The translations under genes were made by a program, and so were the position numbers. Below the pieces are notes generated by a model. It had not been told where the DNA came from. It saw only the letters and a list, made by a program, of their open reading frames with translations, and made no database searches. This document shows, in pieces, positions 4,314 to 38,459 of a stretch of 38,652 nucleotides of DNA. The stretch is taken from NCBI GenBank assembly GCA_022820945.1, contig JAJEEP010000014.1:1-38652 (forward strand), written 5' to 3'. Source of the stretch: Alphaproteobacteria bacterium (GTDB lineage Bacteria > Pseudomonadota > Alphaproteobacteria > UBA828). Positions within the stretch are counted from its first letter, which is position 1, and the number at the start of each line of letters is the position of its first letter.

Positions 4314-4353
4314 GCCGGGCCTTGTGGAGGGATGCGTGGCGCGGGCCAGCTGC

Positions 4354-14410: not shown

Positions 14411-14452
14411 ACCCAATTCTGCCACATCAATGCCACATTCGACCGCCATATC

Positions 14453-16305: not shown

Positions 16306-16368
16306 GGGGCGTATCGACGCGGCCGCGCACGCAATGTGAGACCTGGAGAGGCCAAGGGGAGGAACATC

Positions 16369-17796: not shown

Positions 17797-17896
17797 GCGG
17801 GAGCAGCGAGGCCGGCGACGGCGGGAAGGGTCGTACCCAGCGCGTGAGGGGCGCTCGCTCGGGTGCAGGGCCTGTGGCTGCGGCGGGAGGCGAGTC

Positions 17897-19330: not shown

Positions 19331-19362
19331 AGCGCCGCAGGACGCATCGAGGAGGAACGACG

Positions 19363-19992: not shown

Positions 19993-20051
19993 GCCGGCGG
20001 CGCTTGGGGCCTGCAAGGTGATCCATAGCGGGATCCTTGACTTGGCGGTAA

Positions 20052-21826: not shown

Positions 21827-22572
21827 GCCGCCGACCGACCGGCAAGGAGCGGCTCGACACCTTGCTGGTCGCCCGCGGCCTTGCCGAGACCAGGACCAAG
21901 GCGCAGGCGCTGCTGCTGGCAGGCCGGGTGTATTCCGGCGAGCGCCGGCTCGAGAAGCCCGGAACGCAGGTCGACCGCACGTTTCCGCTCACGGTCAGGG
22001 GCGCGGATCATCCCTGGGTCTCGCGCGGCGGCATCAAGCTGGACCACGCGCTCACGCACTTCGGGATCGACCCGAGCGGGCTGACTGCCCTCGATATCGG
22101 GGCCTCCACCGGAGGCTTCACCGATGTGCTGCGCCAGCGCGGGGCGCGGCGGGTCTACGCGGTCGACGTCGGCTACGGCCAGCTTGACGCACGCCTGCGG
22201 GGCGAGCCCCGCGTCACGGTGCTGGAGCGGACCAACGCCCGCTACCTCTCGCGGGAGCAGGTGCCGGAGCCCATCGACCTCATCGTCTGCGACGCGAGCT
22301 TCATCGGCCTGCGCACGATATTGCCCGCACCGCTCGCGCTCGCTGCCCCAGGCGCCTGCCTCCTCGCCCTGATCAAGCCGCAGTTCGAGGCCGGGCGCGG
22401 GCGTGTGGGCAAGGGCGGCATCGTCCGAGACCCCGCCGTTCGCGCGGAAGTCTGCGAAACGATCAGCGCGTGGCTCACGGCCGCGGGCTGGCCAGCGCTG
22501 GGCTTGGTGGAAAGCCCGATCAAGGGCCGCGACGGCAACACCGAGTTCCTGATCGCCGCGCGTAGGCGGTGA
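21823..22572 (+). CDS. tlyA: TlyA-family rRNA methyltransferase, apparently CTG-initiated
   Basis: This is a 249-residue protein with an N-terminal S4 RNA-binding domain (RLDTLLVARGLAETRTKAQ, LLLAGRVYSG). An FtsJ-like SAM-dependent methyltransferase domain follows (LDIGASTGGFTDVLRQRGA, then IDLIVCDASFIGL). TlyA 2'-O-methylates rRNA, and in some bacteria the modification affects capreomycin susceptibility. Homologues typically begin Met-Ser-Arg-Arg-Pro. Here the matching codons are CTG-AGC-CGC-CGA-CCG, so the start appears to be CTG at 21823, coupled to the ispA stop. An upstream in-frame extension overlaps ispA and does not resemble the family. Confidence 0.85.
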   Translation: MSRRPTGKERLDTLLVARGLAETRTKAQALLLAGRVYSGERRLEKPGTQVDRTFPLTVRGADHPWVSRGGIKLDHALTHFGIDPSGLTALDIGASTGGFTDVLRQRGARRVYAVDVGYGQLDARLRGEPRVTVLERTNARYLSREQVPEPIDLIVCDASFIGLRTILPAPLALAAPGACLLALIKPQFEAGRGRVGKGGIVRDPAVRAEVCETISAWLTAAGWPALGLVESPIKGRDGNTEFLIAARRR

Positions 22573-22576
22573 TCGG

Positions 22577-24673
22577 TCAGTCGAGGGGCAGCAACTCGGC
22601 GATCTCACGCTTGAAGGGAACGTCGTCGCCCTCCACCGCCGGGCCGTCCAGCTCCTCCGCGTAGCGGCGCCCCGCGTAGACCGCGTGGGCGATGGTCGCC
22701 GGCGCCAGCGCGTCGCCAATGGTGGTGACCGTCTCGATTCCTGCGTCCCCCCAGTCGTCCGCGCGCGCCGCAAGCTCTTCGGCGAGGCGGTCCTCCGGTG
22801 CGCGCGACGTGACCAGCACCACCGCGTCCGCCTCGATTTCCTCCGTGCGGCCGGTGAAGACGCAGGAGGCCGTGATGGAGCCCTCCGAGACGGCGTCGAG
22901 GTTGGTGAAGCTCTGGATCGTCACCCCTTTCTCCAGGAGCCTTGCCTGGATGAAGTGCTGCTCCATCGTGTTCTGGGTCCAGGTCGAGGCTTCGGATGCC
23001 GGCGTCAGATAGTGGGTGGTGCAGCCCTTGTCGGCCAACAATTCGGCGATCACCCCGCCCATGTAGTAGTGGTCGTCGTCCCAGACTGCGACACGCGTTC
23101 CTGCCGACGGCACGGTGCCTGCCATGATGTCGTCGGGAGTCAGCACCCGCGCGCCTGCCGCGATGGGCATGGGCCGCGCCCGGCTGCGGCCGAGACCGTC
23201 CGCCCGCCAGCGCGCGCCGGTGGCGACGACGACACGGGGCACGCCGAACTCCAGCACAGCCGCCGCATCGAGATCGGAATCGAAATAGACGTTCACGTTG
23301 GGCAGCTGATGAAGCTGCTGCTCGCGGTAGTCGCGGACCCGGCCCCAGGCGGCGAGCCCCGGCAGCCGGCATTCGCGTGCGACGCGGCCGCCGAGCGCCG
23401 TGCCCTTCTCCGCCAGCGTCACCTCGTAGTCCCGCTTGCCGAGCGCCTGCGCCGCCTCCAGGCCTGCGGGCCCCGCGCCCACGATGAGGACTGGCTTGTC
23501 CGACTCCTGCGGCCGGATGCGCTCCGGATGCCAGCCCTTGCGCCACTCCTCGCCCATCGTCGGATTCTGGGTGCAGCGGATCGGCGACATGGTGAAATCG
23601 CCCGAGACGCAGATGTTGCAGCCGATGCATTCGCGAATGTCGTCGAGGCGCCCTTCCTCGATCTTCTTCGGCAGGAACGGATCAGCGATGGAGGGCCGCG
23701 CGCAGCCGATGAAATCGGCAATGCCCTTGTTGACGACCGACGCCATCCGGTCGGGCGAGGTATAGCGCCCGACGACGACCACCGGCTTCGTGGTGAGGCC
23801 CTTCACTCCGCTGACGAAGGGCTCCTGCCCGCCTTCGGGGCCGAACCGCGACGTGATGGAATCGTTGGGCCAGGCCGCCAGCGACAGGTCCCAGAGGTCC
23901 GGCAGCTCGGCGACGAGGCCGATCAGCTCCTCCACCTCCGCCTTCTCCAGGCCGTCCGTTCCCAGCAACTCGTCGACGGCGATCCGGCACGGCACGGCGC
24001 AGGTGTCTCCCACGGCATCCTTGGTATCGCCGATGATCTCTTCCAGCAGGCGCACGCGGTTGCGCGAAGACCCGCCGTACTCGTCGCTCCGCCGGTTGTG
24101 ATGGCGGGAGAGGAAGTGGTGCAGGACGGTGAGCGCGTGGCCGGCGTACACATAGATGAGGTCGAACCCGGCCTGCCGTGCCCTGAGCGCCGCCGCGCGG
24201 TGCCAGCGGCGCAGGTCGCGGATGTCCTGCCTGTCCATCGCACGGGCCTGTAGCGGCTCGTAGCCTGCGGTCGTGACCGGGATCGACGAGGCCGCCAGCG
24301 GCACCTCTCGCGCGTAGTGATTGGCGGCGTGGGGGCCGTTGTGGGCAAGCTCGATACCCACGAGTGCGCCGAACTCGTGGATCCGGTCCGCGGTCCGCGC
24401 GAGCATCGGGATATCGCGGTCGTCCCAGAGCCGGAGCTCGATGAAGGGATTGACGTCCGACGTGGGGTGGATCTCCACCTCCTCGGTGCAGACCACGGCC
24501 CAGCCGCCCTCCGCCTTGACCCCGCGCATCCAGGCGAGCGCCGTGGGGTCGCGGTGGCCCATGCCGTTGCAGTGCGGCACCTGGTAGAAACGGTTCTTCG
24601 CGGTCACCGGGCCGATCCGGATCGGCTCGAAAAGCACGTCGAAGCGGGGGTCGCGCTGCGCGCCGCTGGTCAT
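22577..24673 (-). CDS. trimethylamine dehydrogenase-family FMN/4Fe-4S oxidoreductase (candidate N-methyl amine or imino acid demethylase)
   Basis: This is a 698-residue enzyme of the TMADH/dimethylamine dehydrogenase/2,4-dienoyl-CoA reductase family. It has an N-terminal FMN TIM barrel, a 4Fe-4S cluster and C-terminal ADP/FAD-binding domains. Cys35 in NRFYQVPHCNGMG matches the cysteine that covalently binds FMN in TMADH. The cluster cysteines lie in RECIGCNICVSGDF and PIRCTQNPTMGEE. The first dinucleotide fold is PVLIVGAGPAGLEAAQAL. Compared with TMADH as I remember it, the tyrosine of the substrate bowl is Glu65 and one bowl tryptophan is lost. The Tyr/His pair (YVYAGHA) and the Trp/Asp pair (AAWPND) are kept. 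The substrate is therefore probably not trimethylamine. The ATG at 24673 follows GGAGG. Its place just after putA suggests N-methylproline, or a similar N-methyl amino acid, as substrate. Confidence 0.85.
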   Translation of the reverse strand: MTSGAQRDPRFDVLFEPIRIGPVTAKNRFYQVPHCNGMGHRDPTALAWMRGVKAEGGWAVVCTEEVEIHPTSDVNPFIELRLWDDRDIPMLARTADRIHEFGALVGIELAHNGPHAANHYAREVPLAASSIPVTTAGYEPLQARAMDRQDIRDLRRWHRAAALRARQAGFDLIYVYAGHALTVLHHFLSRHHNRRSDEYGGSSRNRVRLLEEIIGDTKDAVGDTCAVPCRIAVDELLGTDGLEKAEVEELIGLVAELPDLWDLSLAAWPNDSITSRFGPEGGQEPFVSGVKGLTTKPVVVVGRYTSPDRMASVVNKGIADFIGCARPSIADPFLPKKIEEGRLDDIRECIGCNICVSGDFTMSPIRCTQNPTMGEEWRKGWHPERIRPQESDKPVLIVGAGPAGLEAAQALGKRDYEVTLAEKGTALGGRVARECRLPGLAAWGRVRDYREQQLHQLPNVNVYFDSDLDAAAVLEFGVPRVVVATGARWRADGLGRSRARPMPIAAGARVLTPDDIMAGTVPSAGTRVAVWDDDHYYMGGVIAELLADKGCTTHYLTPASEASTWTQNTMEQHFIQARLLEKGVTIQSFTNLDAVSEGSITASCVFTGRTEEIEADAVVLVTSRAPEDRLAEELAARADDWGDAGIETVTTIGDALAPATIAHAVYAGRRYAEELDGPAVEGDDVPFKREIAELLPLD

Positions 24674-24740
24674 TCTCAACCTCCGTCAGTCGCCAGAGCG
24701 CAGCTTACGCGATCGGGGACCATGCCTCGATCATGGGCGC

Positions 24741-27700
24741 TCAGCCTCCGGCCTCGGCCAACAGCGATGCGTTGCCGCCCGCCGCCGTGGTATCGACGCA
24801 GAGATGGCGCTCCAGCACATAGCGCTCAGGCGCGTCGGGCTCCGCGATAAGCGGCAGAATCGGCCCTGCGCGCTTGGCGAGTGCGGTGCGTATCGCGGTG
24901 AGCAAATCGCGATCCGCGCAGCAGGCGACGGCGGCAATGCCGGGCAAGCTGGTGAGCGCGTCCGGCGCAACTTGACCGTCCAGCACGACCACGAGGGGAT
25001 CGGTTGCGTGAGCGGCAAGCGCCGCACTCGCGCCTTCGGCGACCGCCACCACGGCATTTCCAGCTTCGTGGGCCGCCGCGACCTGCGCGCGCACCGCATT
25101 GGCGCCAGGGCCGAGGCAGAGAACCACGCCGCGGGGCGCAAACGAGAGCCGGTTGGATTCCCCGGTCGGACCGGGGAGCTCCGGCGATGCGAAGCGGCCG
25201 CCGTCCGCGCGATGCGTCCCTGCCGCGAGGGCGCGCCCGGCGACGGCGATGGCGGCGACAAGCAGCGCCTCGTTCAACGTCGCACCCGAGGGCCGACCTC
25301 TTGCCGTGGTTGCACCGGCCGTGAGGCGGCTTACGTAGTGCGGTCCGCCCGCCTTCGGCCCGGTCCCGCTCAGGCCTTCGCCGCCGAAGGGCTGGGAGCC
25401 CACCACTGCGCCGATCTGGTTGCGATTGACGTAGATGTTGCCCGCGCGCACGCGGTCGACGATGCGCTGCACGCGATCGTCGATGCGCGTGTGCAGACCG
25501 AAGGTGAGCCCGTAGCCGGCCCCGTTGACGCCATCGACGACGGCGTCGATCTCGTCGGCGCCGAAAGTCGCGACGTGCAGCACCGGCCCAAAGATTTCTT
25601 CCTGGAGCGCTTCGATCCCTTCGACGCGCAGCACCGTCGGCGGCACGAACGTGCCGTCACCCGGCACCGCGAGCCGCTTGAGAACGCGCCCCTCCTGTTC
25701 GGCCCGCGCGCAGTGCGCCTCGATGCTGTCGCGCGCTTGCGCGTCGATCGCCGGGCCGATGTCGGTCTCCAGCGCCCACGGGTTACCGATGTGAAGCTCG
25801 TCCATCGCGCCGAACAGCATCTCCAGAATTCGCGCCTCGACCTCGCGCTGGACGTAGAGGATGCGCAGCGCGGAGCAGCGCTGGCCGGCGCTCTGGAAGG
25901 CGGAGGCGACGATGTCGCGCACCGCCTGCTCGGGCAGCGCGGTGGAATCCACGATCATCGCGTTGAGTCCGCCGGTCTCCGCAATCAGCGGCGCTTCGGG
26001 CGAGAGGTGTTCAGCCATCGCAAGGTTGATGAGCCGGGCGGTCACGGTCGAGCCGGTGAAGCACACGCCGTCGATGCAGGGATCGGAGACAAGCGCCGCG
26101 CCCACCGTGGCGCCGTCGCCGGGCAAGAGCTGCACTGCGTCCCGCGGGATGCCGGCCTCGTGCATCAGCGTGACCGCGCGCGCGGCGATGAGCGGCGTCT
26201 GCTCCGCCGGCTTGGCGATGACCCCGTTGCCGGCGGCGAGCGCCCCAAGAATCTGGCCCGAGAAGATGGCGAGCGGGAAGTTCCAGGGCGAGATGCAGGC
26301 GATCACGCCGCGCGGGGTGCATTGGCCTTCGCGTCGCAGCCGCAGGGCCTCGCTCGCATAGAAGCGCGCGAAGTCGCAGGCCTCGCGCACCTCCGCCACG
26401 CAGTCGGGCAGGGTCTTGCCCGCCTCGCGTGCAGCGAGCGCGAAGAGTTCTGTCGCGTGCTTTTCGTAGAGGTCGGCCACGTGGCGGAGCCGGTGGGCCC
26501 GCTCCTCGGCGCTGGTCGCGGACCACGCTGTCGCCCCGTCTCGGGCCGCCTCCAGGGCTGTTTCGATGTCGGCCGGCGCGGTGTCCGTCACGGAACCCAC
26601 GATCTCGTCCGGTCGCGCCGGGTTCCGCACCTCTTGGCGCGCGGCGCCGACGGCTTCGCCCGCGATTATCGGCTCGGCCTTCCAGACCGCAGTGCCGAAG
26701 GGTGCGCGCCCCGCCTCGAGCGCATCGACGGCAAGCGGATCGGTGAGGTCCCACCCCTTCGCGTTGCGGCGGGTTGGCATGAAGATGTCGGGGGGCGCCG
26801 TGATGGCCGGGTTCGCGACCGCGCCGTCGCACTCCTCCACCGCCGCGACGGGATCGCGTGCGATCTCTTCGGCCGCCACGCTCTCGTCCACAATCTGGTT
26901 CACGAAAGAGCTGTTGGCGCCGTTCTCCAGCAGGCGGCGGACGAGATAGGCGAGCAGGTCGTGATGGGCGCCCACCGGGGCGTAGATGCGGCAGCGGAGG
27001 CCGTGGACTTCACGCACCGCCGCGTACAGGGCCTCGCCCATCCCATGCAGGCGCTGGAACTCGAAGTGCGAACGGTCTCCGTCGCCCGCCATGTGCAGCA
27101 CCGCCGCCACCGTGTGCGCGTTGTGGGTCGCGAACTGCGGATAGAGGCGGTCCGTCATCCCGAGCAGCTTCCGTGCGCACGCGAGGTAGGCGACGTCGGT
27201 GCAGGCCTTGCGGGTAAAGACAGGAAAGCCGGCGAGGCCCTGCTCCTGGGCGCGCTTGATTTCGGTGTCCCAGTAGGCGCCCTTGACGAGGCGCACCATT
27301 ACGCGGCGCCCGTGCGCGCCGGCGAGCGCGTAGACCCAATCGATCACGTGCGCGGCCCGCTTGCCGTAGGCCTGCACCACGACGCCGAAGCCGTCCCAGC
27401 CGCTGAGCGCGGGGTCCACCAGCACCGCCTCGATGACATCGAGGGAGAGGTCGAGGCGGTCGGCTTCCTCGGCGTCCACGTTGAGCCCGATGCCGGCCGA
27501 CTTGGCGAGCAAAGCGAGCGCGCGTATCCGCGCGACGAGCTCCGACATCACCCGCGCACGCTGGGCGAACTCGTAGCGCGGATGGAGCGCCGAGAGCTTG
27601 ACCGAGACTCCAGGCCGGTCGCGGATGCTCGCGCCTCGGCCGACATCGGCGAGCGCGGTGATGGAATCGGAATAGGCGAGGTGGTAGCGGCGCGCATCCG

Positions 27701-28286
27701 CCTCGGTGCGGGCCGCTTCGCCCAGCATGTCGTAGGAGAAGCTGTTGCCCTGCGCTTCCAGTTCGGCGGCACGGGCCATGGCCTCGCTCATGTCGCGCCC
27801 GAGCACGAATTGATGGCCGAGCTCGCGCATCGCCTGGGCGACCGCCGCGCGGATAACCGGCTCACCGAGCCGCCTGACCGCGCCGTGCAGAGCTCCGGCG
27901 AGACCTTCCTCCGTCTCGCCCAGCACCTTGCCGGTGAGCAGAAGCGCCCAGGTGGAGGCATTGACCAGCGGCGAGCTCGATTGCCCGAGATGCGCCGCCC
28001 AGTTGGACGCTGCGATCTTGTCCTCGATCAGAGCGTCGATGGTCTCGGTGTCGGGCACCCGGAGCAGCGCCTCGGCGAGGCACATGAGCGCCACGCCCTC
28101 GCGGGACGAAAGCCCGTACTCGGCGAGAAAGCCCTGCATGATCGAGGCGCTGCCGCCCTCCCGGACGGTGCGAACCAGATCGGCCGCCCGCGCGGAGATG
28201 GCCTCCCGGTCGGTCCCCGTGAGGTTCGCGGCCTCGACCATCCGATGCACGGCAACCGCCTCGTCCTCGAGTATGGCGGCGCGCAT
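24741..28286 (-). CDS. putA: bifunctional proline dehydrogenase / glutamate-5-semialdehyde dehydrogenase
   Basis: This is a 1181-residue PutA that oxidises proline to glutamate in two channelled steps. The FAD-dependent proline dehydrogenase barrel is at about residues 60-490 (KLSALHPRYEFAQRARV, GLNVDAEEADRLDLSLDVIE, VRLVKGAYWDTEIKRAQEQG). The NAD-dependent aldehyde dehydrogenase follows (ACISPWNFPLAIFSGQ), with catalytic Cys804 in SAGQRCSALRI. There is no N-terminal ribbon-helix-helix domain, so it cannot be its own repressor. The long C-terminal tail of about 200 residues resembles the extra domain of long non-DNA-binding PutA proteins. The first usable start after the upstream permease is the ATG at 28286. 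It sits between the ABC permease and the TMADH-like gene in the same operon. Confidence 0.94.
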   Translation of the reverse strand: MRAAILEDEAVAVHRMVEAANLTGTDREAISARAADLVRTVREGGSASIMQGFLAEYGLSSREGVALMCLAEALLRVPDTETIDALIEDKIAASNWAAHLGQSSSPLVNASTWALLLTGKVLGETEEGLAGALHGAVRRLGEPVIRAAVAQAMRELGHQFVLGRDMSEAMARAAELEAQGNSFSYDMLGEAARTEADARRYHLAYSDSITALADVGRGASIRDRPGVSVKLSALHPRYEFAQRARVMSELVARIRALALLAKSAGIGLNVDAEEADRLDLSLDVIEAVLVDPALSGWDGFGVVVQAYGKRAAHVIDWVYALAGAHGRRVMVRLVKGAYWDTEIKRAQEQGLAGFPVFTRKACTDVAYLACARKLLGMTDRLYPQFATHNAHTVAAVLHMAGDGDRSHFEFQRLHGMGEALYAAVREVHGLRCRIYAPVGAHHDLLAYLVRRLLENGANSSFVNQIVDESVAAEEIARDPVAAVEECDGAVANPAITAPPDIFMPTRRNAKGWDLTDPLAVDALEAGRAPFGTAVWKAEPIIAGEAVGAARQEVRNPARPDEIVGSVTDTAPADIETALEAARDGATAWSATSAEERAHRLRHVADLYEKHATELFALAAREAGKTLPDCVAEVREACDFARFYASEALRLRREGQCTPRGVIACISPWNFPLAIFSGQILGALAAGNGVIAKPAEQTPLIAARAVTLMHEAGIPRDAVQLLPGDGATVGAALVSDPCIDGVCFTGSTVTARLINLAMAEHLSPEAPLIAETGGLNAMIVDSTALPEQAVRDIVASAFQSAGQRCSALRILYVQREVEARILEMLFGAMDELHIGNPWALETDIGPAIDAQARDSIEAHCARAEQEGRVLKRLAVPGDGTFVPPTVLRVEGIEALQEEIFGPVLHVATFGADEIDAVVDGVNGAGYGLTFGLHTRIDDRVQRIVDRVRAGNIYVNRNQIGAVVGSQPFGGEGLSGTGPKAGGPHYVSRLTAGATTARGRPSGATLNEALLVAAIAVAGRALAAGTHRADGGRFASPELPGPTGESNRLSFAPRGVVLCLGPGANAVRAQVAAAHEAGNAVVAVAEGASAALAAHATDPLVVVLDGQVAPDALTSLPGIAAVACCADRDLLTAIRTALAKRAGPILPLIAEPDAPERYVLERHLCVDTTAAGGNASLLAEAGG

Positions 28287-28333
28287 CGCCGCCCGAATTT
28301 CAGTGAGAGCCTGCGATGCGTGGCAGGGGCGGC

Positions 28334-29275
28334 TCACCGCCGCTGGCCGCCCGCGCTGATCCCGATTGCGGCGAGGATGACCAGACCGGTGGTGAGGTCG
28401 CGGTAGAAGGGATCGGCGTTGAGGATGTTGAAGCCGTTGCTGATGAGCGCCAGCAGGAACACGCCACCGAGGCTGCGCCACACTGCGCCGGCCCCGCCGT
28501 AGATGCTGGTGCCGCCCAGGATCACCGCGGCGATGGCCTGCAGCTCCATGCCTTGCCCGGCCGCCGCCTGCCCCAGTGCGACGCGCGAGGTCGCGATGAT
28601 CGAGGCGAGCCCCGCCGCGAAGCCCGCGATGGCGAAGGTGGCGGTCTTCACGCGGTCCGTGCGGATGCCGGACAGCACCGCCGCCTCCTCGTTGCCGCCG
28701 ACGGCGAAGACCCGCCGCCCGAAGGCCGTCCGCGTCAGCGCGAAGGTCAGGATGATGGCGAAGACCGCCATGATCCAGACGGCGATGAAGACGCCGCCCG
28801 CCTTGTCGCGCCCGAGCCAGGTGAAGGTGTCGAGGCGGACGGAGATCAGCCGCCCGTCGGAGATGACGATGGCGACGCCCTTGAAGATCAGACTCGTGGC
28901 GATGGTGGCGAGGAAGGAATGCACCCTGAGCGCATTGATCACCACGCCGTTCATGGTGCCGAGGATGAGGCCGATGAAGGGCGCCAGGAAGAGGCCGAGA
29001 TAGGGGTCCACGTGGAGCGCGATCCAGGCCGACATGACCGAGCCCATGGAGAAGATCGCCGCTACCGAGAGGTCGAAGCCGCCCGCGATAATTACCAGCG
29101 TCATTGCCGAGGCCATGATCGCGAGCGGTGCGTTCTGGTTGAGGATGTTCAGCAGGTTGCGGAAGGTGAGGAAGTTCTCGGATAGCATGCTCAGCGCGAT
29201 GACCAGGAACACGATCATGATCAGGACCGCGTAGGTCTGCAGGAAGCGCCCGACATGGAAGCCCCTGACGGTCAT
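28334..29275 (-). CDS. ribose-type (CUT2) ABC transporter permease
   Basis: This is a 313-residue inner-membrane permease of the RbsC/BPD_transp_2 type with about nine to ten helices. Typical segments are MASAMTLVIIAGGFDLSVAA with the following GSVMSAWIAL, the cytoplasmic-loop GRRVFAVGGNEEAAVLSGIR, and AIAAVILGGTSIYGGAGAVW. It starts at the ATG that overlaps the ATPase gene stop (ATGA). A longer frame from 29557 would lie inside the ATPase gene and is rejected. Members import sugars, autoinducer-2, nucleosides and sometimes other small molecules. The hydantoinase/PutA context suggests a cyclic nitrogen compound instead. It precedes putA by 47 bases. Confidence 0.9.
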   Translation of the reverse strand: MTVRGFHVGRFLQTYAVLIMIVFLVIALSMLSENFLTFRNLLNILNQNAPLAIMASAMTLVIIAGGFDLSVAAIFSMGSVMSAWIALHVDPYLGLFLAPFIGLILGTMNGVVINALRVHSFLATIATSLIFKGVAIVISDGRLISVRLDTFTWLGRDKAGGVFIAVWIMAVFAIILTFALTRTAFGRRVFAVGGNEEAAVLSGIRTDRVKTATFAIAGFAAGLASIIATSRVALGQAAAGQGMELQAIAAVILGGTSIYGGAGAVWRSLGGVFLLALISNGFNILNADPFYRDLTTGLVILAAIGISAGGQRR

Positions 29276-30786
29276 GCGGCGCCCCGCCGCTGGCTCTGGT
29301 GCTGGAAGAGCAGCGCGAGCAGATCGGCTTCGCTGGTTTCCTCCGGGATCACCTCTTCGACGATGCGGCCGCCGTCCGTCAGGTAGGCGCGATGGGCGAG
29401 ACCCAGCACCTCCTCGATCTCGCTGGAGATGAGCAGGACGCCGGTGCCGCCCGCCGCGAGCTCCGCGATGGCGAAGTGAATGCGCTCGCGGGCGCCCACG
29501 TCCACGCCGCGGCTCGGCTCGTCGAGGATCACGATGTCGGGGTTCTCCATGAGCCACTTGCCGATCAGGACCTTCTGCTGATTGCCGCCGGAGAAGGTCG
29601 CGACGTTGCCGTTGGGGTCCGCCGGGCGCACACGAAAGTGCTCGATCAGGCTCATGGCGCGCGTGCGTTCGGCGCGGCGTCGCATGACCCCAAGGTGCGC
29701 GAAGCGGGAGAGGTGAGGCAAGGTCATGTTGGGCGAGACCCGCATGGTCAAGACCAGACCCTGTTTGCGGCGATCCTCCGGCGACATCACCATGCCGAGT
29801 GCGGCGGAGCGGCGGATGGAGCGCTTGCGGTAGATCTCGCCCCGGAGCCGGACCTCGCCGCCCGTCGCCGGGTCTGCGCCGACGATGGCGCGGGCGATCT
29901 CGCTCCTGCCGCTGCCCACGAGGCCGGTGAGGCCCACGATCTCCCCGCGCCCCACCGAAAGGCTCGCGCCGTTGGCGCCCTGCTCGCTCTCCAGGTCCGC
30001 GACTTCCAGCACGGGCTCGGGCTTTTCGGGGCGAACCCTGGGCGGGAAGGGGGTCTCGCTCTTGCCGCCGCCGAGCATCGCCGCGACCAGGCTCGATCGC
30101 GTCTCCTCAGCAGCCGGTCCAGTCTTCACGTGCTTGCCGTCGCGCAGCACGGTGATGCGGTCGGACACCTCGAGAATGTCGTGGAGAAAGTGCGAGACGT
30201 AGATGATCGAGCGCCCCTCGTCCCTGAGCTTCCGCATCGCGAGGTGAAGCTGCGATACCTCGTCCCGCGAGAGCGAGGACGTGGGCTCGTCCATCACGAT
30301 GATCCGGGCATCGCGGGCGAGCGCGCGCAGGATCTCGATCTTCTGCTGATCGGCGATGGGCAGCCGCGAGACGATGGCGTTGGGGTCCAGCTGAAAGCCG
30401 CTCGCGTCCATCAACGCCGAGAGGCGCTGCGCCTCGGTGCGACGCAGTACGCCCCAGCGCCGGTCCTCCAGGCCGAGGAAGACGTTCTCGGCCACGGTCA
30501 GTGCGGGCACGAGCTGGAGCTCCTGGTGCATGATCGCGACGCCCTTGGAGAGCGCCGAGAGCGGATCCCATGCGTTCGCCCGCTCGCCGAAGACATCGAG
30601 CGTGCCTGCGCTCGCTGCGTAGTAGCCGCCGAAGACCTTGCCGAGCGTCGACTTGCCGGCGCCGTTCTCGCCGATCAGCCCGTGAATTTCGCCCGGCAGG
30701 ATGTCCACCGACACGTCGCTGAGGACCCAGACGCCTGCGAAGGCGACGCCGATCCCGTTGGCTCGCAGCGCCGGCTCGTCAGCCAT
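29272..30786 (-). CDS. ribose-type ABC transporter ATP-binding protein (two nucleotide-binding domains)
   Basis: This is a 504-residue tandem ATPase of the RbsA/MglA type. Domain one has a full Walker A (GLIGENGAGKSTLGK) and Walker B (IIVMDEPTSSLSRDEV) but a weak signature motif (LPIADQQKIEIL). Domain two has a degenerate P-loop (GLVGSGRSEIARAIVG), a strong FSGGNQQKVLIGKWL and DIVILDEPSRGVDVGAR. This asymmetry is normal for the group. I chose the ATG at 30786. A TTG at 30798, which overlaps the hyuB stop, would add four residues. No periplasmic binding-protein gene is present in the operon, which is unusual for this transporter class. Confidence 0.9.
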   Translation of the reverse strand: MADEPALRANGIGVAFAGVWVLSDVSVDILPGEIHGLIGENGAGKSTLGKVFGGYYAASAGTLDVFGERANAWDPLSALSKGVAIMHQELQLVPALTVAENVFLGLEDRRWGVLRRTEAQRLSALMDASGFQLDPNAIVSRLPIADQQKIEILRALARDARIIVMDEPTSSLSRDEVSQLHLAMRKLRDEGRSIIYVSHFLHDILEVSDRITVLRDGKHVKTGPAAEETRSSLVAAMLGGGKSETPFPPRVRPEKPEPVLEVADLESEQGANGASLSVGRGEIVGLTGLVGSGRSEIARAIVGADPATGGEVRLRGEIYRKRSIRRSAALGMVMSPEDRRKQGLVLTMRVSPNMTLPHLSRFAHLGVMRRRAERTRAMSLIEHFRVRPADPNGNVATFSGGNQQKVLIGKWLMENPDIVILDEPSRGVDVGARERIHFAIAELAAGGTGVLLISSEIEEVLGLAHRAYLTDGGRIVEEVIPEETSEADLLALLFQHQSQRRGAA

Positions 30787-30794
30787 AACCGTGG

Positions 30795-32516
30795 TCAAGC
30801 GCGCGGCTGCGATCCCTCTTCGTCCACGACGAGGTCCGAGGCGATCCGGACGCCATAGTCCCTCCAGGCTCCTTCAGGAGAAACGTAACCCCGTTTCACG
30901 TCGCGCTGCACCTCCTCGAATGGGCGTGCCTTGGGATTGCCGTTGCCGCCGCCGCCGCCCGTCCAGGTCTCGACCACCGTACCAGCGGCGACCGGCCGCG
31001 CCCGCATCTTGAGCGGCCCTTCGGAGGAGCCGTCGGGGTGGGTGATCTCGACCTTCGGACCCCTTGCGTCTTGGCCCCCATTCAATCCCCAGGCCGGCGT
31101 GAGCGATCGCTCGAACCAAAGAGCGCAGTAGCAATCCTCCAGCGTCTTGTAGCGGCGCAGGACGCCGCAGCCGCCGCGGTGCCGCCCCGGCCCGCCGGAA
31201 TCGGGGCGGATGGCGAATTCCTCCAGCCGGACGGGAAACTTCGTCTCCATCACCTCGGCCGGGATGTTGCGGAAGCTGCCGTTCACCAGGTTGATCAGCG
31301 CGCTCTCCCCGTCGCCGTCGTTGCGGCCGCCCCAGCCGCCGGCGGTGGCCTCGATGGACATCCACTGGCCCCGCTTGCGGTCGACCGAGAAGAAGAGAGA
31401 CACCATCGAATCCCCGTAGTGGGCGGCAGTCGAGCGTTCGGGGATCGCTTCGGAGAGGCAGGAGATGAAGAGATCCGCCAGCAAGCCCAGGCCGGTGAAA
31501 TACCACTCGCAGGCCGCGGGCTCCTTGGCGTTGAACAGGCAGGCGTCCGGAATGCGGACGGTCATCGTCTCGAAGGAGCCGCCGGTGATCGCGCGCTCCG
31601 GGTTGATCATCGTCTTGTAGGCGAGGCGGAGCAGCGACACGGTCTGGCTCGCGCCGCAGTTGACCGATCCGGGGACGATGCCCGAGGAGCCTGCGAGGTC
31701 GACGATCAGCTCCTCGCCCTTGACCGTGAGCGTGAGCGCCACCTTGACCGGGTCGTCGCCCGCGCCGTCGCTGTCGAGACAGCCTTCCCGGTACCAGGTG
31801 CCGTCCTTGATCGCCGCGATCGCCTCGCGGTCCATGCGCCTGGCCTGCTCGAAGATGTTCTTGCAGGCGGCCCGGTAGGTCTCGATGCCGATGCGGTCGA
31901 GCAGTTGGGAGAGCCTGCGCTCGCCGGTGCGAACGGCGGCGATCTGGGCGTCCAGGTCGCCGATGCTCGTGTCCGGCATGCGGGTGTTGAGGCGCAGCAG
32001 GTCGAACCATTCGCGGATGGGCTTGCCTTGCGCGACGATGCGGGTGGGCCCCAGACGCAGACCCTCCTGGTAGATGTTCGTGGACCCCATGACCGTGCCG
32101 GGGTCGATGGCTCCGATGTCGTTCCAATGCGCGCGTGCGGCGCCGAAGCCGATCAGCTCGCCGCCGAAGAAGATGGGCCCGACCACCGACACGTCATGCA
32201 GGTGCGAACCCTGCATGTAGCTGTCGTTCATGATGAAGACATCGCCCGGCGCGATGTCGTCGCCGTAATACTCCATCACGTGGTGGACGTTGGCATCGAT
32301 CGCGCCAATGAAGAGCGGTACGCCGCTCGACTGGCCCAGCATGTTGCCGTCCGCGTCCAGCAGCCCGACGGCGCTGTCCCGGCCCTCGTAGATCACCGCC
32401 GAATGGGCGGAGCGCCAGAGCGAGGCGTTCATGTCCTCCGCGCAGGAGACGACGAAGTTGCGCACGATCTCGGTCGTGACGGGGTCTGCGATGTTGCGCA
32501 GCATCGGGTCGTTCAT
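30795..32516 (-). CDS. hyuB: hydantoinase B / 5-oxoprolinase family, B subunit
   Basis: This is a 573-residue HyuB-type subunit. With HyuA it forms ATP-dependent enzymes that open lactam or hydantoin rings: N-methylhydantoin amidohydrolase, 5-oxoprolinase and acetone carboxylase relatives. Recognisable segments are IVRNFVVSCAEDMNASLWRS near the start, DVFIMNDSYMQGSHLHDVSV and RAHWNDIGAIDPGT. The late RPDSGGPGRHRGGCGVLRRY and the Gly-rich GGGGGNGNP near the C-terminus are also typical. Its start overlaps the hyuA stop as ATGA, so the subunits are co-translated. The exact substrate cannot be read from sequence. The neighbouring putA favours pyroglutamate-like or N-methylated cyclic substrates. 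Confidence 0.9.
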   Translation of the reverse strand: MNDPMLRNIADPVTTEIVRNFVVSCAEDMNASLWRSAHSAVIYEGRDSAVGLLDADGNMLGQSSGVPLFIGAIDANVHHVMEYYGDDIAPGDVFIMNDSYMQGSHLHDVSVVGPIFFGGELIGFGAARAHWNDIGAIDPGTVMGSTNIYQEGLRLGPTRIVAQGKPIREWFDLLRLNTRMPDTSIGDLDAQIAAVRTGERRLSQLLDRIGIETYRAACKNIFEQARRMDREAIAAIKDGTWYREGCLDSDGAGDDPVKVALTLTVKGEELIVDLAGSSGIVPGSVNCGASQTVSLLRLAYKTMINPERAITGGSFETMTVRIPDACLFNAKEPAACEWYFTGLGLLADLFISCLSEAIPERSTAAHYGDSMVSLFFSVDRKRGQWMSIEATAGGWGGRNDGDGESALINLVNGSFRNIPAEVMETKFPVRLEEFAIRPDSGGPGRHRGGCGVLRRYKTLEDCYCALWFERSLTPAWGLNGGQDARGPKVEITHPDGSSEGPLKMRARPVAAGTVVETWTGGGGGNGNPKARPFEEVQRDVKRGYVSPEGAWRDYGVRIASDLVVDEEGSQPRA

Positions 32517-34579
32517 GATCCCGCCTCCTTCGTCATGGAGAGGTGGCCCCCCTCGACCACCGCGGCGTTCCAGCCCGGCGGCACCAGCGTCGTTGCCGTC
32601 GACTCTTCGATGATCGCGGGGCCCGCCACGGCATCGCCGATATCGAGCCCGTTGCGGTCGAGCACCGGCGTCTTCAGCGGCCGGCCGGCGAAGATGACAT
32701 CTCGCTTACGTGTGGGCCGTGCTGGCTCTCGCGCGGGCGGGGCGGAATCCGGGCGCGCCAGCCGGCCGAGCGCGGCCAGGCGGATGTTCGCCATCTCGAC
32801 ACGGTTCTCCGGGCTGGAATGGCCGTATTGCCGATCGTAGGCCGCATCGAAGCTCTTGCGCACGGCATCCATGTCGATGGTCCCGCTCGGCACCGGGATG
32901 GTGAGGACATATTCCTGCCCGTAGTAGCGGAAGTCGATGGCCCGCTCGAAGTCGATGGCGTCCTCGGCGATTCCCTCGGCCAGCAGGTGTTGGCGGCCCC
33001 TCTCCTCGAGCCCTGCGAACGCGGCTTCGAGAGTGGCGCGCTCCATTAAATCCCAGAAGGAGTAGAGCGTCTCCTTGTCGTCACGGCGTACGTCGGTTTG
33101 CAGCATGCCCCAGGCGGAAAACGCACCCGGGTGCACCGGCACGATGATCTCGCGGATCTGCAGCTCTTCGGCGAGCGCGCCCGCCTGCGCCGGCCCTGCG
33201 CCGCCGAAGGCGACGAGGGAGAAGTCCCGCGGGTCGATGCCGCGCTGCACCGTGATCGTCCTGATCGCATCCGCCATCTTGGCGTTTACGACATCCACAA
33301 CGCCCTGAGCCATGGTCTCCGCCGTGAGCCCGAACGTCTCGCCGATGCCCTGCAACGCGCGCACCGCCGCGTCCCGATCCAGCGCCATTTCGCCGCCGGA
33401 GAAATTCGCGCCGTCGAGGCGGCCGAGCACGAGGTTGGCGTCGGAAACCGTGGGCTCGGTTCCACCCAGCCCGTAACAGGCCGGCCCCGGCATGGAGCCG
33501 GCGGACTGGGGGCCGACGCGCATGGCGCCCGCCTCCTCCCACGCGATGGAGCCGCCGCCCGCGCCGATGACGTGGATGTCCACCACCGACATCTGGACCG
33601 GCAGCCCCTCCAGCTTGGCGTGGTTGGAGCCAGACGGCAGCCCGTCGATGATCAGGCTCGCGTCGAAGGAGGTGCCGCCCATGTCGATGCAGATGAGGTT
33701 GGGCCGCCCGGTCGCGGCGGAGAGCGCCCTGCCGCCGATGGCACCGCCCACCGGGCCGGAGAGCAGCGTCTGCAGCGGGGTCTCGCTGGCGGATTCCGCC
33801 GTCATCACGCCGCCGTTGGACTGCATCACGTGCAGCCCCCGGCCTTCGGGCAGGCGGTCGCTGAGACCGCCGATCAGCGTCTCCAGGTAACCCCGCACAA
33901 CCGGGGCGAGGTAGCTGTCCATCACCGTGGTGGACGTGCGCTCGAACTCCCGCCACTCCGGCGAGACCCGGTGCGAGAGGCCGATGGGAATGTCGGGCAG
34001 GCGGGCGCGCAGGTATTCGGCCGCCCCCAGTTCATGCGCGGGGTTCTTGAAGGAGAAGAGGAAGGCGATGGCGATCGCCTCGAAGCCCTCTTCCTTCACG
34101 GCGTCGACGAGGCGGTCGAGGTCGGCCGTCTCCAGCGGGGTCACGATCTCGCCGGTGGCCGCGATCCGCTCCCGCGCCGTGAACGTGTGCTCGAGCGGCG
34201 CGAGCGGCTCGGGCTTGTTCCAGCGGATCGAGAAGATCTCGCCTCGGTCGTTGCCCTGGATCGTGTAGATGTCCCGAAAGTTCTCGGTAGTGAGCAGCGC
34301 GACCTTGGCGCCCCGGCGGGTGAGCAGGGCGTTCAGCCCCACGGTCGTGCCGTGGACGAAGAAGTCGATCGCATCGGCTGCGGGAATGGCTGTCTCGATG
34401 CCGCGCAACACCGCGAGGCCAGGGTTATCCGGCGTCGAGAGGACCTTCGCGGCACCACAGGCGCCGGTCGCGCAATCCTGATAGACGATGTCAGTAAACG
34501 TGCCGCCAATATCTACACCGACGCGGTATCGGCCCTGAGTAACGGGTTTTTTTGACTTCTTTTCAATAGGTTGAGACAT
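32513..34579 (-). CDS. hyuA: hydantoinase A / 5-oxoprolinase family, A subunit
   Basis: This is a 688-residue HyuA-type subunit with an actin-like ATPase fold. The phosphate-binding motif is GVDIGGTFTDIVYQD near residues 20-34. A second glycine-rich motif is ICIDMGGTSFDASLI. DFFVHGTTVGLNALLTRRGAKVAL, DPRDFSLVAFGGAGPAQAG and the C-terminal GPAIIEESTATTLVPPGW are family landmarks. The first 15 residues are Lys-rich (MSQPIEKKSKKPVTQ), and the DNA there is noticeably more AT-rich than its surroundings. It is the first gene of the operon. Its ATG touches a perfect 17-base inverted repeat (34579-34621), so initiation may be controlled by that structure or by a protein bound to it. No normal Shine-Dalgarno is visible outside the repeat. 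Confidence 0.92.
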   Translation of the reverse strand: MSQPIEKKSKKPVTQGRYRVGVDIGGTFTDIVYQDCATGACGAAKVLSTPDNPGLAVLRGIETAIPAADAIDFFVHGTTVGLNALLTRRGAKVALLTTENFRDIYTIQGNDRGEIFSIRWNKPEPLAPLEHTFTARERIAATGEIVTPLETADLDRLVDAVKEEGFEAIAIAFLFSFKNPAHELGAAEYLRARLPDIPIGLSHRVSPEWREFERTSTTVMDSYLAPVVRGYLETLIGGLSDRLPEGRGLHVMQSNGGVMTAESASETPLQTLLSGPVGGAIGGRALSAATGRPNLICIDMGGTSFDASLIIDGLPSGSNHAKLEGLPVQMSVVDIHVIGAGGGSIAWEEAGAMRVGPQSAGSMPGPACYGLGGTEPTVSDANLVLGRLDGANFSGGEMALDRDAAVRALQGIGETFGLTAETMAQGVVDVVNAKMADAIRTITVQRGIDPRDFSLVAFGGAGPAQAGALAEELQIREIIVPVHPGAFSAWGMLQTDVRRDDKETLYSFWDLMERATLEAAFAGLEERGRQHLLAEGIAEDAIDFERAIDFRYYGQEYVLTIPVPSGTIDMDAVRKSFDAAYDRQYGHSSPENRVEMANIRLAALGRLARPDSAPPAREPARPTRKRDVIFAGRPLKTPVLDRNGLDIGDAVAGPAIIEESTATTLVPPGWNAAVVEGGHLSMTKEAGS

Positions 34580-34621
34580 TACACCGGCCGGATATCAAGG
34601 AGTAATATCCGGCCGGTGTAA
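34579..34621 (-). promoter_or_regulatory. perfect 17-base inverted repeat at the hyuA start
   Basis: The arms are 34579-34595 and 34605-34621, exactly complementary, with a nine-base loop. The core of each arm is ATATCCGGCCGGTGTAA. The arm nearest hyuA ends on the A of the ATG. In RNA it would form a very stable hairpin directly before the start codon; in DNA it is a large two-fold operator. There is no T-run after it, so it is not an ordinary terminator. Confidence 0.75.
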
Positions 34622-35040
34622 GCGTACTGTAAGCGGATTCGTTCCAACTCAGGTCCGCTCATGGCGTTGTGCCGCCGATGCCGGGCAACCGTCCCGCGAA
34701 TGGCCCCGACCCTGGAACGAACCGCGTCGAACGCTCCCGCAGCCGACCGCGATATCCGCCGCCACTGTAGCAGCGGAGCGGGCGGCCGTCACCGGGTGGC
34801 ACAGGCCGTGTTTGCACCGCGCGACAGCACCGCTCCCCCGTCACTCCTCGGGCAGGCCGCGCGGCACCGGCTCGCGCCAGCTGCCGGCGGCGAGCGCTTC
34901 GGCCTTGGGGATCCAGTGGCGCATCTGCGAGCGCATCCACTCGCGGGTGCGCCATTCCGCCGCGACCCGCCGGGCGCCCCAGACGTTCACGGCGATCTGG
35001 CCGGCACCCCTGTCCCGCCGCAGCCCGTCTATCTGCCGGT
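34622..35040. other. stretch without a confident gene; possible truncated minus-strand coding end
   Basis: Nothing convincing is seen at 34622-34840 apart from two copies of GTAAGCG (34618-34624 and 34629-34635) and the probable hyuA promoter area. On the minus strand, a frame ending at 34841 reads sensibly only for its last roughly 65 residues (34841 to about 35040). These are Arg/Trp-rich, with RTREWMRSQMRHWIPKAEAL near the end. It then loses character where the transposase remnant begins on the other strand. It may be the 3' end of a gene cut by an insertion. I do not recognise the family. Confidence 0.25.
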
Positions 35041-35044
35041 AGTG

Positions 35045-35323
35045 GGAGGCAGCCCTTCGCTGGGCTGGAGCGACGGTCAGATGATGCTGGCCTCGCTGCT
35101 TCTCAACGTGGCTGGAATCGACCGGGTGTCGGACATCGACCGACTGGAGGGGGACGCGGGGCTTTGCATGCTGGTCGGGCGCTTTGAGCCGCAGCTGCTC
35201 GGGCCTTCGAAGCGTGCCATCGCCGGGCGCTTCCGGGGCGGACGGGATCGCTGCTTTCCTTCGGCGTGCTCGATGCGTGACTGGCTGGACCGTTTCCATG
35301 TCGCGGGCCTGCATGGGGTGTGA
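35045..35323 (+). pseudogene. transposase remnant (IS1380-like DDE family, N-terminal part)
   Basis: About 90 residues ending at a TGA at 35321-35323 resemble the early part of a widespread IS1380-like transposase. The segments are GWSDGQMMLASLLLNVAGID, the following RLEGDAGLCMLVGRFE, and the closing FPSACSMRDWLDRFHVAGL. The N-terminal residues before about 35045 and the whole catalytic domain after 35323 are missing, so the gene is dead. It lies about 220 bases left of the IS66 element, inside the scrap zone. Confidence 0.55.
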
Positions 35324-35541
35324 GACCAACGCGCCGAAGGGCGTCCCAATCGCGCTTCCTGACCGCTCAGGCTGTCGGGCGATGAAAGCCGTTTTGCGAC
35401 CGGCATTTGGCCCGAGCGGCGCTTGAGCGGCAGCGCCCGCCGCGCACTTACGGTGACAGTCCCCGAACCGCCACGCGGCTTCCGAGCGGCACTATAGGAA
35501 GCACGAGGTAACAGATCAATGCATGAAGTCTCTTTCACAGG

Positions 35542-35746
35542 GTAAGCGGTGCGCCCGGCCCACCTTCCTATATATAAGGTGATGGCGTTCGATACCCCTT
35601 TCGCCAACACGGGAGGGTTTCACCATGCCGGATGGGTTCGAGCGCCCTGTCTACGCTCGGGACGGGCGGGACACGGGTGACGCGGCTTCGGAAGATGCCG
35701 ATGTCGCCGAGGACGGTTTTGTCGACGATGCTCCGGCGCCGGCTCG
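35542..35746 (+). repeat. left copy of the long IS66 terminal inverted repeat
   Basis: This copy contains the terminus, a TATATATAAGG stretch, the Shine-Dalgarno GGGAGGG and the first 40 or so codons of tnpA. It aligns with the inverted right copy with a two-base indel near the terminus (TTCCTATA against TTCCCCTATA) and roughly a dozen substitutions. Similarity stops abruptly after GGCTCG at 35741-35746. Confidence 0.85.
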
Positions 35747-36164
35747 CGATCGGCAGTGGACCGAGGAAGAGAAGGCGGTCGTGGTGAGCGAGTGCTGCTG
35801 GCCGGGGAGGCACGTGGGTGAAGTGGCCCAGCGCTACGGCCTGTCGGTGAACCGGGTGAACGGCTGGCGCAGCCAGGCGCGGCGGGGCAGGCTCACATCG
35901 CCGTTTTCTCCGGAGGCGGAAGCCGAGCCTGTGGAGGCAGCGCAGGCGGGGCGGACGCTGGCCGCGCGCAAGGCCGAGGCCGAGCCGGGCCCTGCCACAC
36001 CGAGGCCGTCGCCGGCGTTCGCCGCGATCGAGGTGGAGGCTCCGCCGCCGGGCTCGGTCGGTTCGGTGTCGATCGAGGCGCGCGGGGTGATGGTCCGCCT
36101 TGACGGGGATCTCGATACGCCGCGGATCGCGGAGATCGCCTCAGCGCTGCGAGCCCTTCGATGA
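35625..36164 (+). CDS. tnpA: IS66 TnpA (accessory transposition protein, helix-turn-helix)
   Basis: This is a 179-residue small IS66 protein. The helix-turn-helix region is EEEKAVVVSECCWPGRHVGE with VAQRYGLSVNRVNGWRSQAR at about residues 45-85. The acidic N-terminal 40 residues (DAASEDADVAEDGFVDD) are encoded by the repeated end of the element. The C-terminal part is Ala/Pro-rich, then ends with a beta-rich segment (VSIEARGVMVRLDGDLD) typical of IS66 TnpA. A Shine-Dalgarno GGGAGGG lies upstream. The stop overlaps the tnpB start as ATGA. Confidence 0.88.
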   Translation: MPDGFERPVYARDGRDTGDAASEDADVAEDGFVDDAPAPARDRQWTEEEKAVVVSECCWPGRHVGEVAQRYGLSVNRVNGWRSQARRGRLTSPFSPEAEAEPVEAAQAGRTLAARKAEAEPGPATPRPSPAFAAIEVEAPPPGSVGSVSIEARGVMVRLDGDLDTPRIAEIASALRALR

Positions 36165-36514
36165 TTGGCCCGGGGGCTACGCCGCGGATCGTGCTGGCCA
36201 CGCGTCCGGTGGACTTCCGCAAGGGGCATGACGCCCTGGTGTCATTGGTCGAGCACGAGCTCGGCCTGGACCCGTTCTCCGGCGTCATGGTGGTGTTTCG
36301 CCCCAAGCGGGCGGACCGGATCAAGGTGCTTTGGTGGGACGGGACGGGCCTGGTGCTGGCGTCCAAGCGCCTCGAACAGGGGCGCTTTGCCTGGCCCTCG
36401 GTGCACGATGGGGTGGTCCGCGTTTCGCGCGCGCAGTTCGAGGCGCTGTTCGAGGGCCTCGACTGGCGCCGGGTGTGGCGGCCGCGGACCCGCCGGCCGC
36501 TCGCGGCGGCCTGA
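36161..36514 (+). CDS. tnpB: IS66 TnpB (IS66 Orf2-like protein)
   Basis: This is a 117-residue protein with the highly conserved Orf2 layout: RIVLATRPVDFRKGHDALVS, FSGVMVVFRPKRADRIKVLW, then WDGTGLVLASKRLEQGRFAW and the closing LFEGLDWRRV. It is required together with TnpA and TnpC in studied IS66 elements, but its biochemical role is unclear. It is intact and coupled to tnpA by a four-base overlap. Confidence 0.93.
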   Translation: MIGPGATPRIVLATRPVDFRKGHDALVSLVEHELGLDPFSGVMVVFRPKRADRIKVLWWDGTGLVLASKRLEQGRFAWPSVHDGVVRVSRAQFEALFEGLDWRRVWRPRTRRPLAAA

Positions 36515-36581
36515 CCGGAGAGGACGGTCCCGATTCGCATTGTCGCAGGCTAAGGCGCTGATTCTGTGATAGTATTCCTTC

Positions 36582-38237: not shown

Positions 38238-38253
38238 AAAATCAAGATGGGCC

Positions 38254-38459
38254 GAGCCAGCTCCGGAGCATCGTCGACAAAACCGTCCTCGGCGAGATCG
38301 GCGCCCTCCGAAGCCGCCTCACCCGTGTCCCGCCCATCCCGAGCGTAGACGAGGCGCTCGAACCCATCCGGCATGGTGAAACCCTCCCGTGTTGGCGAAA
38401 GGGCTATCGAACGCCATCACCTTATATATAGGGGAAGGTGGGCTGGACGCACCGCTTAC
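38254..38459 (-). repeat. right copy of the long IS66 terminal inverted repeat (with a truncated tnpA start)
   Basis: Read on the minus strand this is a second copy of the element's left end: terminus, TATATATAAGG, Shine-Dalgarno and the ATG of tnpA (complement of 38372-38374). About 40 codons follow (MPDGFERLVYARDGRDTGE...). The frame then runs on out of context into the end of tnpC and is not a real gene. Ordinary IS66 termini share only some 20-30 bases, so this duplication is extra. Confidence 0.85.

Follow-up and report, generated by a model that had tools for sequence, protein, structure and literature searches.

We analysed contig JAJEEP010000014.1 of an alphaproteobacterial genome assembly (GCA_022820945.1, lineage UBA828), a stretch of 38,652 nucleotides referred to here as the window, in which six minus-strand genes encode the two subunits of a HyuA/HyuB-type ATP-dependent cyclic-amide hydrolase (HyuAB), the ATPase and permease of a ribose-type ABC importer, the proline-catabolic enzyme PutA and a flavoenzyme. 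They make up the downstream end of a conserved module in which an M24-family peptidase and a GntR-type regulator lie on one strand and a substrate-binding protein (SBP), HyuA, HyuB, an RbsA-type ATPase and an RbsC-type permease lie on the other. We give roughly an even chance to the proposal that the module uses ATP to open a cyclic amide containing proline or hydroxyproline, likeliest a cyclic dipeptide, whose products would then pass through a prolidase to PutA or to hydroxyproline catabolism. We are more tentative, putting it somewhat below an even chance, about the fuller claim that this is an ATP-driven catabolic pathway for proline or hydroxyproline cyclic dipeptides, one that relies on a dedicated HyuAB clade and occurs chiefly among Alphaproteobacteria, many of which are marine bacteria or probable symbionts of sponges. 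The module is a recurrent combination of known enzyme families with a testable substrate; what is observed is its gene content, its conservation, its intact catalytic residues and its repeated link to enzymes of proline and hydroxyproline breakdown, and the substrate and the activities are predicted.

Six genes of the window form the downstream part of an operon

The open reading frame (ORF) list and Pfam and NCBIfam scans returned six minus-strand frames of the families named in an initial annotation of this DNA, and confirmed its HyuA, HyuB, ribose-type ATPase and permease, and PutA:

32513–34579, minus: hyuA, ATP-binding subunit of the HyuA/HyuB ATP-dependent cyclic-amide hydrolase (Pfam Hydant_A_N, Hydantoinase_A, Hydant_A_C)
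30795–32516, minus: hyuB, metal-binding subunit (Pfam Hydantoinase_B, 516 bits)
29272–30798, minus: RbsA/AraG-type double ABC ATPase of the importer (Pfam and NCBIfam)
28334–29278, minus: RbsC-type permease (BPD_transp_2; ORF to 29557, start at ~29278 set by homology)
24741–28337, minus: putA, proline dehydrogenase plus glutamate-semialdehyde dehydrogenase (PRK11904; start at 28337 or 28286, ORF to 28481)
22577–24679, minus: histamine-dehydrogenase-type flavoenzyme (Oxidored_FMN; structure-sequence matches to 3k30 and 6de6)

HyuA and HyuB overlap by 4 bases, as do HyuB and the ATPase, and the ATPase overlaps the permease by about 7 bases given the homology-placed permease start. The permease and PutA either overlap by 4 bases (start 28337) or are 47 bases apart (start 28286), and the 61-base gap between PutA and the flavoenzyme is the largest between the six genes. 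This spacing is operon-like, as had been proposed, and suggests a single transcript. A consensus promoter scan of 22400–35400 found no sites with 0.8 expected, and the same interval held three terminator-like sites, no more than the 4.4 expected by chance. PutA contains both Pro_dh and Aldedh domains and passes the NCBIfam equivalog PRK11904 (1445 bits against a cut-off of 747); the permease scores 226 bits against the ribose permease model, under its cut-off of 398.

The same six-gene order occurs in two genomes of the same genus (L035 and L043), and the arrangement is thus not a chance one. An SBP was not found within the window, though the importer needs one. In L035 and L043 the M24 peptidase and a GntR/FCD regulator are encoded on one strand, and on the other the order runs SBP (Peripla_BP_4), HyuA, HyuB, ATPase, permease, PutA, flavoenzyme. 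The M24, GntR and SBP genes of the window's own genome lie on a separate 4.6-kb contig (C16, listed as L055) that is 93% identical to L035. We therefore rejected the view that the window holds a complete operon: its downstream six genes are real, but the start is missing, having been parted from them by the probable integrated element described below.

A conserved module pairs HyuAB with an importer, a regulator and an M24 peptidase

To place these genes among their relatives we scanned a collection of species genomes with an alignment of six HyuB proteins and kept the best 80 of 206 relatives. These comprise a close set of 56 loci with HyuB identity of at least 47% (L070–L125, own genome not included) and a control set of 24 loci at 32–35% (L126–L149). 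In the close set, L070 stands for the contig of L043, and the contig of L071 contains L035. HyuB proteins of this type are rare: among 385 genomes of the class 2 have one at E ≤ 1e-140, and among 398 of the phylum 4 have one at 1e-110, both counts including the own genome.

In 44 of the 56 close loci one strand carries the genes for SBP, HyuA, HyuB, ATPase and permease in this sequence, a GntR match is present in 39 of the 56, and a divergent M24 gene lies within 2.5 kb in 34 of the 43 loci that have an SBP and more than 2.6 kb of upstream sequence. M24 genes were found in 38 of the 56 close loci and in none of the 24 controls (Fisher p 2e-9, a guide only because the loci are related and the counts not independent). 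In this comparison the profile for M24 came from the close set, and the controls were somewhat shorter (mean 16.4 against 18.5 kb). Record titles place the hosts mostly in Rhodobacteraceae, Rhizobiaceae and Rhodospirillales; a few belong to other Pseudomonadota or to Actinomycetota, and one is a relative of Bacillus. Carriers include Hoeflea alexandrii DSM 16655 and Nitratireductor sp. XY-223; many others are metagenome bins, and isolate names suggest that some carriers are sponge symbionts.

At L116, HyuAB, GntR and M24 are present and no importer gene was seen. In Rubrobacter taiwanensis (L119, 5042–12825) an ECF-type importer with a double ATPase and a CbiQ-like protein replaces the ribose-type one and is followed by HyuA, HyuB and M24. 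L107 carries, convergent to the module, a second and distant HyuA/HyuB set (29–32% identity) together with another M24 protein (31%) at 9931–16407 on the minus strand.

The module recurs beside genes of proline and hydroxyproline catabolism

PutA is encoded downstream of the permease in 11 of the 56 close loci, nine of which also show M24. Five of these loci belong to the window's genus, with gaps of 48–72 bases, and six to a Silicimonas/Boseongicola group, with gaps of 440–493 bases; a twelfth match to the PutA profile (L093; 33% identical, upstream and on the other strand) was left out of this count. The PutA-bearing loci fall into two separate clades of the HyuB tree, on which two changes are needed for PutA. 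In a PutA tree the operon PutAs likewise form two clades, each placed beside a PutA that has no module within 1.5 kb; their joint node is weak (88/75), and two recruitments of PutA into the module are likely, if not proven.

Genes of the proline racemase family are present in six further loci (L075, L099, L105, L107, L116 and L124), all with M24. They occupy five places on the HyuB tree as read by eye; with the tree tool, which omits unlabelled rows, two changes suffice for this label. We scanned all of these loci except L105 against NCBIfam, and each had at least one protein above the cut-off for either of two enzymes: trans-3-hydroxy-L-proline dehydratase in L075, L099 and L107, and 4-hydroxyproline epimerase in L075, L099, L116 and, barely, L124 (378.6 bits against 376). 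L075 and L116 add genes of the DapA family and of the D-amino-acid-dehydrogenase type, the customary set for hydroxyproline degradation, which in L116 are placed beyond the M24 gene and not after a permease. In L124, from the Bacillota genus Terrihalobacillus, a DAO oxidase, two proline-racemase-family genes, HyuA, HyuB, a Transp_cyt_pur permease and M24 occur together.

The same searches of the 24 distant HyuAB loci found neither M24 nor PutA nor a proline racemase in any of them, against 38, 12 and 6 of the 56 close loci. Genes of either proline or hydroxyproline catabolism thus accompany 17 of 56 close and 0 of 24 distant loci (Fisher p 0.002, again a guide only, given the relatedness of the loci). 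Seen from the other side, 29 other alphaproteobacterial PutA loci had no module gene within flanks of ~1.5 kb, except for a single 53-bit match of a generic ABC ATPase.

Within the window's genus, PutA is present as a single copy in seven of eight genomes, the source genome included, and six of the eight encode a HyuB of this type; in all six PutA lies ~2.3 kb away on the same strand, the span taken up by the ATPase and permease genes. Of the remaining two, G004 (62% complete) has PutA on a contig of 4 kb that lacks the other genes, and G005 has neither PutA nor HyuB. That PutA sends proline to glutamate, as first annotated, gains from this single copy and from the joining of PutA to the module in two HyuB clades.

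Catalytic residues are kept and the binding site departs from that of ribose-binding proteins

The nearest NCBIfam model to HyuA is the caprolactamase alpha subunit (505.9 bits against a cut-off of 1000), and HyuB scores 272.3 bits against the caprolactamase model for CapB (cut-off 1000). Aligned by eye to 6yra_A, HyuA keeps equivalents of Asp11, Asp18, Lys32 and Asp295 of the CapA nucleotide site, and residues D47, H105, D108 and H130 of HyuB, aligned to 6yra_B and invariant in all six alignment rows, correspond to the Asp-His-Asp-His metal tetrad of CapB (residue numbering and roles from PMC8453981). The CapB pocket residues Leu38 and Tyr136 are by eye replaced in the window's HyuB by Glu44 and Thr141.

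The M24 proteins have dipeptidases, aminopeptidase P and Xaa-Pro peptidases as their nearest solved relatives, and D224, D235, H299, E328 and E342, which as Asp, Asp, His, Glu and Glu we take to be the M24 metal ligands, are invariant in all 38. The nearest solved relatives of the SBP are named ribose- or sugar-binding proteins. At the positions of the ribose contacts Asp89, Arg90, Asp215 and Gln235 of E. coli RbsB, the SBPs of the module have Leu, Phe, Gly and Tyr in at least 45 of 49 aligned rows. The site is conserved and less polar, which speaks against ribose and names no ligand.

A cyclic dipeptide containing proline or hydroxyproline is the proposed substrate

From the neighbourhood we infer that the substrate is a neutral cyclic compound containing proline or hydroxyproline, with a 2,5-diketopiperazine, cyclo(X-Pro) or cyclo(X-Hyp), as the best guess. 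The SBP would bind the ring compound and the importer would take it up; HyuA and HyuB, by the chemistry of their family, would hydrolyse one ring amide at the expense of ATP, yielding a linear dipeptide that the M24 prolidase-type peptidase would split into amino acids. PutA would then convert proline to glutamate, its established family chemistry, and in other lineages hydroxyproline would enter through 4-hydroxyproline epimerase or trans-3-hydroxyproline dehydratase. A cyclic dipeptide fits best because its use needs both a cyclic-amide hydrolase and a prolidase-type peptidase and has proline or hydroxyproline as a product. The idea that a small cyclic amide or imino-acid compound is imported and ring-opened by HyuAB, already present in the initial annotation, is supported as a reading. 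That annotation missed three genes because they lie outside the window, namely those for the SBP, the GntR regulator and the prolidase-family M24 peptidase, and these point to a dipeptide-like intermediate.

The same partners would also be explained if the substrate were pyroglutamyl-proline or pyroglutamyl-hydroxyproline, with HyuAB acting as a 5-oxoprolinase on the pyroglutamyl ring and M24 cutting the resulting Glu-Pro. The family, whose reaction is the opening of cyclic amides, does include 5-oxoprolinases (PMC8453981). Such a ligand would, however, present a carboxylate to an SBP of neutral-sugar type in which, among the sites examined, only the equivalent of Arg141 is cationic and Arg90 has become Phe. 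L124, moreover, has a Transp_cyt_pur permease, and members of that family are known to transport neutral rings, hydantoin and uracil among them. We consider a pyroglutamyl dipeptide unlikely.

The M24 family also includes hydrolases that are not peptidases, among them creatinase and ectoine hydrolase, and HyuAB relatives include ATP-dependent hydantoinases. HyuAB might accordingly open some other proline-derived ring, such as a proline hydantoin or an N-carbamoyl or lactam derivative, with M24 cutting a C-N bond in the manner of those enzymes. Two ectoine hydrolase models are among the weak M24 hits, and Pfam Creatinase_N, which covers creatinases and prolidases, was matched; yet the scores of 73.0 and 63.6 bits fall below those for PepQ (183.8) and aminopeptidase (144.2), no creatinase equivalog appeared among the NCBIfam hits of M24, and the hydroxyproline partners are harder to account for. 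This substrate class seems to us quite improbable.

Several observations weigh against a cyclic dipeptide pathway of the kind proposed. HyuA and HyuB clear no named NCBIfam cut-off, and M24 falls far under all equivalog cut-offs; prolidase activity is not secured, because the best score, that for PepQ, stands against a cut-off of 630. The SBP keeps equivalents of the ribose-site residues Asn13, Phe15, Arg141 and Asn190 in 43–48 of 49 rows. M24 was not found in 9 of the 43 loci with room for it, including both importer-bearing actinobacterial loci, and 39 of the 56 close loci show no PutA or proline-racemase-family gene, some of their contigs ending early. PutA is not tied to the module at the family level, because G012, G013 and G018, three genomes that belong to the same family but to other genera, carry a 53–55% identical PutA without this HyuB. 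To these are added the relatedness of the loci and the limits of the control comparison given above. The excerpts of PMC3852281 report cleavage of several cyclic dipeptides and name no strain cleaving cyclo(Pro-Tyr), the proline-containing ring among those tested there.

The 39 loci without a proline partner would suit a looser explanation, in which HyuAB, M24 and the proline genes have separate substrates and merely share a broad island for scavenging peptides and amides; peptidase and amino acid genes often cluster. Against this, the tight core recurs by record title in Rhodobacteraceae, Rhizobiaceae, Rhodospirillales and others, and the proline partners appear at seven places of the tree (by eye) and in none of the distant HyuAB loci. 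We regard loose co-localisation as unlikely, and prefer the cyclic dipeptide.

Cyclic dipeptides, those of proline above all, are abundant natural products, and to our knowledge many members of the HyuA/HyuB family are without a known substrate. If the proposal is true, a cyclic-dipeptide route would become traceable in genomes and metagenomes and one HyuA/HyuB clade would gain a function. The degradation of cyclic dipeptides is little known (PMC3852281), and none of the papers listed by searches of an open-access library (the top 20 of the longer lists), judged by title and the opening of the abstract, tied HyuAB to diketopiperazines, cyclic dipeptides or hydroxyproline gene clusters.

The flavoenzyme is probably a recent neighbour

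The initial annotation made the sixth gene a TMADH-like (trimethylamine dehydrogenase) enzyme, of a type that demethylates N-methyl amines, a reading that the present comparisons do not support. The protein scores 886.5 and 883.2 bits against the histamine dehydrogenase (HDH) structures 3k30 and 6de6, and 518.3 bits against TMADH. It keeps the FMN-linking cysteine (Cys37), and its Trp270 and Asp361 correspond to HDH Trp267 and Asp358; the equivalent of Gln65 is Glu67 (residue list from PMC10180351). At the positions of Tyr60, Trp264 and Trp355, which we take to form the aromatic bowl of TMADH, it has Glu67, Trp270 and no equivalent of Trp355, losing two of the three.

Besides the window, the flavoenzyme adjoins the module in 2 of the 56 loci, and it was not found after PutA in L072, L073 or L121 despite 2.9–4.0 kb of room. 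In four sister species (L036, L037, L038 and L039) a 72–75% identical ortholog lies directly behind the genes of an unrelated ABC importer; the importer's binding protein, as scanned in the L036 copy, is of SBP_bac_8 type. The flavoenzyme is probably a recent neighbour, an unrelated amine dehydrogenase and not a core part of the module, and the likeliest role for it is to act on an amine substrate of its own.

The pathway first proposed, in which a TMADH-like enzyme demethylates an N-methylated or lactam imino acid that HyuAB opens and PutA carries to glutamate, draws on the adjacency of all six genes here and in the two same-genus genomes. It could also appeal to a distant HyuAB pair (31–39%) that lies within ~14 kb of a flavoenzyme homolog in three of the four sister species and in L047, a proximity that carries little weight because these genomes hold many HyuAB candidates. 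Set against the lost bowl residues, the closeness to histamine dehydrogenase, the rarity of the flavoenzyme beside the module and its ortholog behind another importer, we consider this pathway very improbable, and reject TMADH-type N-demethylation as a core step. Ornithine-lactam and polyamine routes through the flavoenzyme were also set aside, as it is not conserved with the module.

Two side observations concern these enzymes. The operon of flavoenzyme and importer in L036–L039 may be a unit for amine uptake and deamination. The source genome (G000) encodes at least six homologs of histamine/trimethylamine dehydrogenase type, 45–100% identical to the window protein, and five of seven sister genomes also have six.

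A probable integrated element interrupts hyuA

Contig C16 carries the native 5' end of hyuA and tracks L035 as far as the DIGGT motif; beyond these codons it continues into foreign DNA, which has an open frame that by eye resembles a phage-type tyrosine integrase. The window matches L035 only up to 34513, the matches of the window and C16 overlap by 14 bases at the DIGGT motif, and the first 66 bases of hyuA are unlike those of intact relatives. The features involved are as follows:

34514–34579, minus: 5' end of hyuA, a replacement start codon and N-terminus probably from an integrated element (junction comparison with L035 and C16)
34514–38652, no strand: far end of the probable integrated element, with insertion sequences, parting hyuA from the SBP gene (Pfam, junction comparison)
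34579–34621, no strand: perfect inverted repeat of 17 bases, just before the start codon of hyuA
35625–36164: HTH_Tnp_1 (Pfam)
36582–38237: IS66 transposase (Pfam)
Contig C16 (L055), 3430–4550: foreign part with the tyrosine-integrase-like frame (by eye)

On the simplest reading, drawn from two contigs of a draft genome of 178 contigs that is 6.45% contaminated, an element inserted itself into hyuA at the DIGGT codons and supplied a replacement 5' end, and it thus appears to restore the coding start of its own target gene. A search of viral contigs with the substitute 5' end gave no match. When 30 relatives were searched with the end of the element (34514–35330), the matches outside the own genome were all short and partial and came from 5 of the other 29.

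Elsewhere in the window

Positions 16658–17803 and 18186–20002 both match the same part of L035 (18184–20000, where Pfam finds Amidase and GST genes), the first at 82% and the second at 90%, which suggests that the amidase gene of the window is duplicated. ARAGORN called a tRNA-Ser (cga) at 19229–19315 that runs into the 3' end of an amidase-like frame encoded on the opposite strand; the overlap may be genuine or the tRNA call spurious.

Comparison with known systems

The flavoenzyme resembles histamine dehydrogenase in its FMN-linking cysteine and its Trp267 and Asp358 equivalents, differing at the Gln65 position, and differs from TMADH in having neither Tyr60 nor Trp355. The importer shares with RbsABC the families of its SBP, double ATPase and permease and four ribose-site residues of the SBP, and differs in lacking the four others. 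HyuA and HyuB share with CapAB, 5-oxoprolinase and N-methylhydantoinase a two-subunit architecture and the residues of the nucleotide and metal sites; they differ from caprolactamase in reaching about half or less of the required score and in having a prolidase and proline genes as neighbours.

The clusters for proline and hydroxyproline catabolism, with PutA or with epimerase and dehydratase, use the same enzyme families as those found beside the module in the 17 loci. PMC4113996 notes peptidase families next to a proline racemase superfamily cluster in Bacilli, and its excerpts do not mention hydantoin, oxoprolinase, dipeptide or cyclic. The two-step degradation of diketopiperazines differs from the proposed pathway in being known from activity studies, with no genes assigned to it in the excerpts of PMC3852281, where ATP also goes unmentioned. 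Its logic, a hydrolase followed by a dipeptidase, as in the route for cyclo(Gly-Leu) of Kanzaki et al. 2000 (cited in PMC3852281), is the same as that proposed for the module.

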